Assembly: GCA_015075105.1 (NCBI GenBank)
Contig: JABTUZ010000001.1
Location: 248,001-312,000, forward strand
From: Leptospiraceae bacterium
Lineage (GTDB): Bacteria > Spirochaetota > Leptospiria > Leptospirales > Leptospiraceae
Reading direction: 5' to 3'
Length of the DNA: 64,000 bases
Of this stretch, positions 38,253 through 41,638 are shown piece after piece. The notes beneath the pieces were generated by a model. That model was given only the letters and a program-made list of their open reading frames with translations, had not been told where the DNA came from and did no database searches. Both the position numbers and the translations under genes were made by a program. Position 1 is the stretch's first letter, and each line of letters begins with the position of its first letter.

Positions 38253-38385
38253 ATTTTTCCCTCAGTTTCGCTAAAATGATTCTTATCATAAATTACTCAA
38301 GTGAAAATTAAAAATCACAATTTTTAGAAATCACTTGACCTGTTTTCTAATTTCTCATTTTTTATGTTTAGATTTGGAAAATACT

Positions 38386-39261
38386 ATGGCATACAATAAC
38401 ACTCAAGACTTTTTTCATTCATCTATTGATGGAACTAAATTATTCTACCAATCTTGGCAGAAAGTAAAACCGGGCACTGGCAGGGTCATGGTATTTCAGC
38501 ATGGTTTTGGGGAGCATAGCGACAGGTACGGTAACTTATTAGACAAATTCCAAAATAGCGATATGAATTTTTATGCCTTAGATTCAAGAGGTCATGGTCG
38601 CTCTGAAGGAAAAAGGGGACACGTCGATCAATTTCAACTATACATAGATGATTTAAGCGATCTTATCAAGATTGTAAAAGAAAAAGAAAAAGTGCAGAAA
38701 GTTTTCTTACTTGGTCATTCTCTTGGTGGAGTGATTGTTTTACAATATGCGATTCAGGGGATCAATCAGGAAAGTTTAATTGCCCTGTTAGTTTGTTCTC
38801 CCGCAATCAAAGTAAAAATGAATTTAGACAAGCAGATTAAGAAAAAAATAGCCGGGTTTTTAGCAAACTTTTTTCCTGCTGTTACATTGGATGCAGGATT
38901 GGATTTAAAATATCTTAGCAACGACCCATCTACTATTGATGCATACAAAGCAGACCCTTTAGTTCACGGTAAGGTATCTTTTCAGATGGCTACGAATCTT
39001 TTCAATCTCTCCAGATCCATTCGAGAAAAAGCGGGAATTATCAAGGTTCCGGTCTATTTAATTCATGGAAGTGAAGACGGTATCGTTGATATAGAAGGCT
39101 CAAAAGAATTGTACCAACACTTGATCTATAAAAATAAACAATTTAAGATTTATCAAGGGCTATACCATGAACTTATGAATGAAACACCTGAAGAAAGAGA
39201 GAAGGTTTTAAGTGATTTAAAAAACTATGTTGATTCTATCATGCCTGAAAAGTTGAAATAA
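38386..39261 (+). CDS. Alpha/beta hydrolase, monoacylglycerol-lipase-like
   Basis: From the ATG at 38386 the enzyme has 291 residues. Family motifs are VFQHGFGEHSDRYGNL (oxyanion hole HG), DSRGHGRSEGKRGHVD, the nucleophile elbow LGHSLGGVI with Ser, the acidic residue in VYLIHGSEDGIVD and the catalytic His in GLYHELMNE. This set is typical of lysophospholipase/monoglyceride lipase proteins (Hydrolase_4). An upstream in-frame Met at 38335 would add 17 hydrophobic residues and has no better ribosome binding site. The triple-fusion gene begins 13 bases downstream, so they may be co-transcribed. Confidence 0.88.
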   Translation: MAYNNTQDFFHSSIDGTKLFYQSWQKVKPGTGRVMVFQHGFGEHSDRYGNLLDKFQNSDMNFYALDSRGHGRSEGKRGHVDQFQLYIDDLSDLIKIVKEKEKVQKVFLLGHSLGGVIVLQYAIQGINQESLIALLVCSPAIKVKMNLDKQIKKKIAGFLANFFPAVTLDAGLDLKYLSNDPSTIDAYKADPLVHGKVSFQMATNLFNLSRSIREKAGIIKVPVYLIHGSEDGIVDIEGSKELYQHLIYKNKQFKIYQGLYHELMNETPEEREKVLSDLKNYVDSIMPEKLK

Positions 39262-39274
39262 TCTAAAATCAGTA

Positions 39275-41638
39275 ATGCCTAAGTCTATCCTTATCACGCA
39301 ATGCTTACAAAATGATTTTGTAGAATTATTACAAAAATATGATCCAATCCCCAACCTTCTTCATGTCGGATTTGAAGAAGCAAAAAGACTGTTAAGTGAA
39401 AAAGCAGAGGAAGGCCCGATAGATTCTGTTATGGAGTGGGCCTACCTTTGTTCGGAAGAAGATTTAGAAATCATTCATATTCGAGATTGGCACGATCCTA
39501 AAGATCAAGATCAGAAACAACACTTGAAGTATTTTGGTGATCATTGTTTGAAAAACACAAAAGGTGCAGAATTTGTATTTGAAAAAAAAATTCTTCCAAG
39601 TAGAAAGCATAGCATTGTAAACGCAAGCGGGTTAAACGATTTTTTAAATACGAATCTTGAAAGAATTTTAACTCCATTCAAAAATGAAAAAATAAAAGTA
39701 GGAATCATCGGAGTATGGACTGAAGCAAAAATATTTTTCTTGGCATATGATTTAATTACACGCTATCCGAATTTTGAGGTTGTTACTTGTAGTGCACTGA
39801 CAGCAAGTTCTTCAAGGGCAATGCACTTTATAGCTTTGGATCAACTTCATGATATACTCGGTGTAAAAATATTTTCATCTATTGGTGCTTTTACTCACCA
39901 CCTGACAAATTCAATGCCAAAACTTACTGGGAATATTCATGGTGATAAAAGTTTAGAAAAACTATTGTTTGAGCCCGGGTATGAAATAAAAGACACTGAT
40001 AAGAAAATACTATCCTATTTGTTTCGAGATTGCAAGACAGTAGAGTTAGAATGTTTAGATGGTGGGTTTTCCGGAAATCTTGTTTTGAAAGCGAAGGGAC
40101 ATGATGTACTTGGACATATTCAAGTTCCCACAGTAGTGAAAGTTGGGGAGAGAAATTCAATCGCAAGAGAAAGAAATTCATTTGAGAGAATCCAAGAAGT
40201 GCTGGGGAATAACGCCCCCAATATTGTAGATTTTGCTGAGCTTGAAGACAGGGGTGGGATTAAATATCGATACGCAGCTATGCTCGACGGAGATGTAAAA
40301 ACTTTTCAAAAATTATACGCAAAATCTGAAGATATCGAGAAAATTCATAAAATTTTAGAAATAGTATTTTTAAATCAACTCGGAAGGCTTTATGAAGCTG
40401 CAAGATCAGAAAAATTAAATCTTCTGCATTACTATGATTTTCAAAATAAATATGCATCTTCTATCCGTAAAAATATCGAATCTTTGATAGGAAAAAAAGC
40501 TAATGGAGAAAAAATAGAAATATTAAAAGGAGAGTTTATTCCCAATATATGCAATTTTTATGAAAGAGATTTGGATTCTCTAAGGGAGTATAACTCTGTA
40601 TCTCATTACATGTCCTACGTACACGGAGATTTAAATGGAGCGAACATTATAATTGATTCACAAGAGAATGTGTGGATCATTGATTATTTTCATACTCATA
40701 GAGGTCATATTTTAAAAGATTTAGTGAAGTTAGAAAATGATATTTTATATATATTTACTAAAATTGAAAATGAAGAAGATTTAAAAGAAGGGTTTCGCTT
40801 AACGGATATATTGATTAATTGTCCTGACTTAGGGATTCCTGTTACAAATGAAAGAGTGTCTGAATTTAAAAATCCTTTCATTATCAAAGCGCTAAACACT
40901 ATCGTAAAGCTAAGGCAGTTCTATCCTTCGCTCATTCAATCCGATAGAGACCCTTATCAGCTATATGTTCCTATAGTGCGTTATGCGATGCACACCCTTT
41001 CATTTGATGAGTCGAGTGACTTGCAAAAGCAGTGGGCATTGTACACCGGCTCTTTGTGCTCTAAAAAAATTCAAGAATATTTAAAAAAATCTAAAGAGTT
41101 AAGAGTGGATTTTTTAAATTTGTCTAAATTAGAGCCGAACAAAATAGGGATTACAATTCTTCCCGGAAGAAAAGATCGCAATAGAAATTTAAAAGATGAT
41201 ATTCAAACAATACGCGAGAATAATATTCAAAGTGTTCTCTGTTTGATGACGATGAATGAGTTCACTGAATATGGCGTAGAAAATCTGCTATCGTCTTATA
41301 AAGATTCTGGACTCATCTCGATGCATATTCCCATAAAAGATCAAGGAATTCCTTCAAAAGAAGTAATGGATCAAATCATAATTTGGGTCAATCAAGAGTT
41401 AGAAAATCGTCGTAATGTATTAATCCATTGTGTAGGTGGGCTTGGCAGATCAGGTACGATCGCTGCGACTTTTATAAAAGGTAAATTTAATCTATCGGGA
41501 GATGATGCAATTGCAATCGTGAGAGAATCGAGAAGTGAGAGGGCAATTGAAACTAAGGAACAAGAAGAATTTATTCAAAATTACCACACCCCGGAAAAAA
41601 CAGTGCGGGGTCTAAATCAAATAGCCACATTTCTGTAA
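39275..41638 (+). CDS. Three-module fusion: isochorismatase fold, phosphotransferase, dual-specificity phosphatase
   Basis: The 787-residue protein joins three modules. Residues 1-210 look like a cysteine-hydrolase (isochorismatase) fold: SILITQCLQNDF keeps the catalytic Asp, a Lys lies in KNTKGAEF, but the nucleophile segment GVWTEAKIF has Lys where Cys is expected. Residues about 240-620 are APH/choline-kinase-like: VVKVG, then YVHGDLNGANIIID with His450 and Asp452, and WIIDYFHTHRGH. Residues about 625-787 are a dual-specificity or Tyr phosphatase with HCVGGLGRSG (Cys719). Kinase-like and phosphatase motifs are intact, so the protein may add and remove phosphate on one target. The target is unknown. 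Confidence 0.82.
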   Translation: MPKSILITQCLQNDFVELLQKYDPIPNLLHVGFEEAKRLLSEKAEEGPIDSVMEWAYLCSEEDLEIIHIRDWHDPKDQDQKQHLKYFGDHCLKNTKGAEFVFEKKILPSRKHSIVNASGLNDFLNTNLERILTPFKNEKIKVGIIGVWTEAKIFFLAYDLITRYPNFEVVTCSALTASSSRAMHFIALDQLHDILGVKIFSSIGAFTHHLTNSMPKLTGNIHGDKSLEKLLFEPGYEIKDTDKKILSYLFRDCKTVELECLDGGFSGNLVLKAKGHDVLGHIQVPTVVKVGERNSIARERNSFERIQEVLGNNAPNIVDFAELEDRGGIKYRYAAMLDGDVKTFQKLYAKSEDIEKIHKILEIVFLNQLGRLYEAARSEKLNLLHYYDFQNKYASSIRKNIESLIGKKANGEKIEILKGEFIPNICNFYERDLDSLREYNSVSHYMSYVHGDLNGANIIIDSQENVWIIDYFHTHRGHILKDLVKLENDILYIFTKIENEEDLKEGFRLTDILINCPDLGIPVTNERVSEFKNPFIIKALNTIVKLRQFYPSLIQSDRDPYQLYVPIVRYAMHTLSFDESSDLQKQWALYTGSLCSKKIQEYLKKSKELRVDFLNLSKLEPNKIGITILPGRKDRNRNLKDDIQTIRENNIQSVLCLMTMNEFTEYGVENLLSSYKDSGLISMHIPIKDQGIPSKEVMDQIIIWVNQELENRRNVLIHCVGGLGRSGTIAATFIKGKFNLSGDDAIAIVRESRSERAIETKEQEEFIQNYHTPEKTVRGLNQIATFL

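Follow-up and report, generated by a model that had tools for sequence, protein, structure and literature searches.

A three-module spirochaete protein joining an altered nicotinamidase-like fold, a TCAD9 kinase module and a dual-specificity phosphatase

A three-module protein and its distribution

Within a 64,000-nt stretch of a Leptospiraceae bacterium genome (GCA_015075105.1, 3.42 Mb in 4 contigs; contig JABTUZ010000001.1, positions 248,001-312,000, forward strand; "the window"), we identified a gene whose product joins an isochorismatase-like module, a kinase module and a dual-specificity phosphatase (DSP). Four FlaA matches over the cut-off, with none in 14 control genomes, mark the genome as that of a spirochaete. 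The protein is a new combination of already known domains and, to judge from its sequence, is probably a regulatory kinase/phosphatase. The gene and its modules are as follows.

39275..41638, plus strand: three-module protein gene, ATG to stop, 787 aa, with 25 full-length homologues
39275..39940, plus strand: module 1, isochorismatase/nicotinamidase-like, about residues 1-222 (PF00857, PDB profile matches, conservation, paralogue alignment)
39980..41074, plus strand: module 2, TCAD9 kinase, APH/RIO-like, about residues 236-600 (PF19974, APH, RIO1, conservation)
41090..41584, plus strand: module 3, CDKN3/DSP-type phosphatase, about residues 606-770 (PF05706, PF22785, PF22784, PF00782, 1fpz match, conservation)

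Translation of 39275-41638 reproduced the open reading frame of a preliminary description of this DNA, with the motifs GVWTEAKIF at residues 146-154, HGDLNGAN at 450-457, IIDY at 468-471 and HCVGGLGRSG at 718-727, and its numbering of D452 and C719 is correct. The three modules that it had placed in a single chain were borne out by a Pfam domain search of the window's protein. Isochorismatase was matched at residues 52-193 (30.7 bits, cut-off 27), TCAD9 in two stretches, the best at 414-575 (189.8 bits, cut-off 40), and the CDKN3/DSP phosphatase at 608-770 (CDKN3 73.5 bits, cut-off 20.7; DSPc 43.7 bits, cut-off 33.5). No NCBIfam model reached its cut-off. The description knew of no characterised protein in this module order, and we found no described protein with the order isochorismatase-like, TCAD9, DSP in the literature searched.

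We surveyed whole genomes of the window's own phylum. Long matches were detected in 24 of the 100 relative genomes searched (the window's own not counted), all except one from the same class, and a TCAD9 profile search added two further carriers in other families of the phylum. The 25 full-length homologues extracted are ~49-60% identical and covered over the whole length. Together with the window's protein they make 26 sequences, all of which have the same module order and match all three modules; thus the architecture is not due to chance, and its retention in many relatives indicates that the protein is real. The gene is absent from many genomes of the class, absence being weak evidence in incomplete drafts. 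In a tree of the 26 proteins the genera are well grouped and the deep forks are weak. Module 1, with a mean pairwise distance of 0.42, is better conserved than the kinase (0.46) and the phosphatase (0.55), which indicates that it is under selection. Distances correlate between modules (r 0.84-0.87), as expected of any vertically inherited protein.

Viral contigs yielded no relative. Phages and plasmids yielded matches to single modules only, and plasmids searched with a divergent kinase module yielded none. The sole match in a search of genome contigs, 22 residues long and in Vibrio, lies in a 235-aa kinase-like ORF, by our own reading Kdo-kinase-like, and this is not a three-module protein.

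A re-wired pocket in the nicotinamidase-like module

PF00857 was matched in all 26 members, and PDB profile matches identify nicotinamidases and cysteine hydrolases as the closest solved relatives of module 1. With the nicotinamidase/isochorismatase superfamily (P. horikoshii nicotinamidase, 1im5/1ilw; also 3hb7) it shares, besides the profile match, the DWH...HC metal motif and the GVxT loop that precedes the nucleophile position. Canonical nicotinamidases have an Asp-Lys-Cys catalytic triad and coordinate their metal with an Asp, two His and a fourth residue that varies (PMC5531466). The window's protein differs from this superfamily in its fused kinase and phosphatase and in the triad itself. 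The nucleophile Cys position is occupied by Lys152 (26/26) and the catalytic Lys position by Ala117 (Ser in one of the 26), and an invariant Cys10 (26/26) lies at the canonical catalytic Asp position. The last assignment comes from a profile-profile alignment against a few canonical relatives, in which SILITQCLQNDF was aligned to SILIVVDIQEKL of the genome's own paralogue (E 1.6e-9), with Cys10 on the catalytic Asp; in a MAFFT alignment with other relatives the Cys10 turn is ambiguous by at least one residue. No Asp occurs in the stretch T8-Q12 in any of the 26 sequences.

The predicted metal site is retained. Asp71, His73 and His90, at the metal-ligand positions, are invariant in the 26 sequences, as is His83, a candidate fourth ligand; the conserved His-Cys motif has Cys91 as its cysteine. 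Module 1 looks incapable of the canonical D-K-C chemistry, and its pocket, as read from the alignment, is strictly conserved and re-wired, not decayed. The preliminary description had called this module a cysteine-lacking, dead hydrolase. The first term is right for the nucleophile position and wrong elsewhere, given Cys10 and Cys91; the second is right in that the canonical triad is gone and too simple in that Cys10, Lys152, Asp71, His73, His83 and His90 are strictly conserved. That reading had counted on there being no alternative cysteine in the active site, and at the sequence level Cys10 is one. A single-sequence AlphaFold2 model of module 1 had a mean pLDDT of 41, and a fold search with this poor model returned no match at E <= 0.001.

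Kinase and phosphatase modules with invariant catalytic residues

Module 2 is placed by its Pfam match in the existing family TCAD9 (PF19974, ternary complex associated domain 9). PF19974, APH and RIO1 were matched in the kinase modules of all 26 proteins, APH and RIO1 falling below cut-off in the window's protein. Lys289, Glu299, the HGDLNGxN loop (with D452 and N457) and Asp470 are invariant in the 26 sequences, and they include the predicted ATP lysine (K289), the HGDxxxxN loop and the predicted metal-binding Asp (D470) of a kinase. The family match and these residues support the phosphotransferase or kinase-like module originally proposed. Protein-kinase profile matches in the PDB were weak, and a single-sequence AlphaFold2 model of the module had a mean pLDDT of 37, too low to judge the fold. 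TCAD9 has been described as associated with vWA-MoxR-VMAP systems (PMC10910872). Here we saw no such system adjoining the gene, and the kinase is flanked by the isochorismatase-like module and the DSP.

TCAD9 also occurs in other contexts. Three ORFs over its cut-off (G007:C403, G004:C56 and G059:C147) are 1531, 1296 and 913 aa long, unlike members of the three-module family; TCAD9 stands in them by itself or with other matches in the same frame. A Rhizobium plasmid encodes a 530-aa TCAD9 ORF (L080, 4437-6029) in which Pfam detected TCAD9, APH and Choline_kinase only. By our own reading its N-terminal segment, where Pfam detected no receiver domain, resembles a response-regulator receiver, which would fit a signalling role.

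Module 3 was matched by CDKN3 (PF05706), Tc-R-P and PTP-SAK (PF22785, PF22784) and DSPc (PF00782) models in 26 of 26 proteins, and its best PDB match is 1fpz, CDKN3 (E 1e-19). Asp689, His718, Cys719 and Arg725 are invariant in the 26 sequences and correspond to the HCx5R loop and the putative general-acid Asp of dual-specificity phosphatases. An intact DSP, as first suggested, is thus supported by both the family searches and the catalytic residues. The module resembles CDKN3/KAP and the Tc-R-P / PTP-SAK phosphatases in its HCxxGxxR[ST]G loop and upstream Asp, and differs from them in being the C-terminal part of a three-part bacterial protein. Since the catalytic residues of the kinase and of the phosphatase are invariant in 26/26, both modules look active.

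Gene neighbourhood

The gene directly upstream of the three-module gene is a possible operon partner.

38335..39261, plus strand: alpha/beta hydrolase (Hydrolase_4), ending 13 bp upstream of the three-module gene start

This hydrolase is not conserved beside the gene in relatives. Across the carrier genomes we detected no conserved operon or neighbourhood, the neighbours varying from genome to genome, and therefore no partner gene indicates a pathway. A MoxR-type gene lies downstream on the same strand in four genomes of one genus (L055-L058), and another about 4 kb downstream in one distant genome. Pfam identified MoxR in one of the four same-genus loci and in the distant locus, and DUF58 in another of the four.

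Proposed function and alternatives

Reversible phosphorylation by the kinase and phosphatase modules is plausible. Our tentative reading, held with less than even confidence, is that the protein is bifunctional, kinase and phosphatase in one, with ligand or metal/redox sensing in module 1 setting the balance between the two; catalysis, a shared substrate and the gating are steps that we infer. The TCAD9 kinase would phosphorylate a protein or small-molecule target, and the DSP at the C terminus would dephosphorylate either this target or one linked to it. Module 1, no longer performing cysteine-hydrolase chemistry, would employ its metal site and Cys10/Lys152 pocket for ligand binding or for sensing of metal or redox state, and its state would set the balance between the two activities. 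The identical module order in 26/26, the invariant kinase and phosphatase residues and the invariant C10 and K152 would fit such a switch. Against it, the kinase and phosphatase could have different substrates, and module 1 may yet have enzymatic activity. PFK-2/FBPase-2, AceK and HprK/P are bifunctional kinase/phosphatases, and a ligand-controlled pair of opposed activities in one chain would offer a parallel to them; we claim no homology, and the folds or their combination differ. A stronger form, in which a nicotinamidase fold has acquired a new site (Cys10/Lys152/metal) for catalysis or sensing that controls the opposed kinase and phosphatase as a new one-protein phosphorylation switch, seems to us unlikely.

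In the leading alternative, module 1 would have catalytic activity of its own with an altered chemistry, based either on metal-bound water or on Cys10, in its new position, together with Lys152, and the kinase and phosphatase would perform further steps of one small-molecule pathway. We consider this possible, if doubtful. The invariance of D71, H73, H83, H90, C10 and K152 exceeds the needs of a mere scaffold, and plasmid relatives of the module 3 phosphatase include fusions to ADP-ribosylglycohydrolase; phosphatases paired with that enzyme have been proposed to process released ADP-ribose (PMC9503650). However, all three canonical catalytic residues have been lost, and neither ADP-ribosylglycohydrolase nor KptA has a phyletic pattern that matches that of the three-module gene. 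The carrier genomes tested also lack a nicotinate/nicotinamide phosphoribosyltransferase gene (PF04095), and this speaks against nicotinamide salvage of the usual kind. We give almost no credence to the reading of module 1 as a normal NAD-salvage nicotinamidase: the nearest solved relatives and the retained DWH...HC motif speak for it, but it is contradicted at the sequence level by replacement of Asp, Lys and Cys in 26/26, and the tested carriers have no PncB/NAMPT-family gene. Three genomes of the class with a PF04095 gene have no three-module protein, and in each an isochorismatase-family ORF adjoins that gene.

G008:C23:2453-4007: isochorismatase-family gene beside nicotinate phosphoribosyltransferase-family gene
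G010:C2:67517-69094: the same pair
G020:C2:491268-492870: the same pair

On a Leisingera plasmid (L079, 3999-10546), a DSP-ADP-ribosylglycohydrolase fusion adjoins genes for WYL, PD-(D/E)XK nuclease and UvrD-helicase proteins, in an arrangement resembling the ARG-centred systems described in PMC9503650.

A role in conflict (defence) of the vWA-MoxR kind is improbable for this protein. The name TCAD9 comes from vWA-MoxR ternary conflict systems (PMC10910872; background in PMC7159879), and the downstream MoxR-type genes of the four same-genus genomes and the distant one point the same way. PADLOC, however, had no match for the three-module protein, the architecture is always the same, and most genomes have no conserved neighbours. 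MoxR-DUF58 gene pairs are, moreover, ordinary chromosomal operons in many bacteria. Among the neighbours scanned with Pfam, vWA, MoxR and a third component were not found linked, and a vWA-like DUF58 occurred in one locus.

It is unusual for a nicotinamidase fold to have exchanged D-K-C for Cys10/Ala117/Lys152 and kept the metal motif beside them. If the kinase and phosphatase do oppose each other under module 1, the protein would be a self-contained phosphorylation switch in many spirochaetes of one class. Such a switch would come with a clear set of testable residues, and the TCAD9 family, named from conflict systems, would gain a tractable member that carries its own phosphatase.
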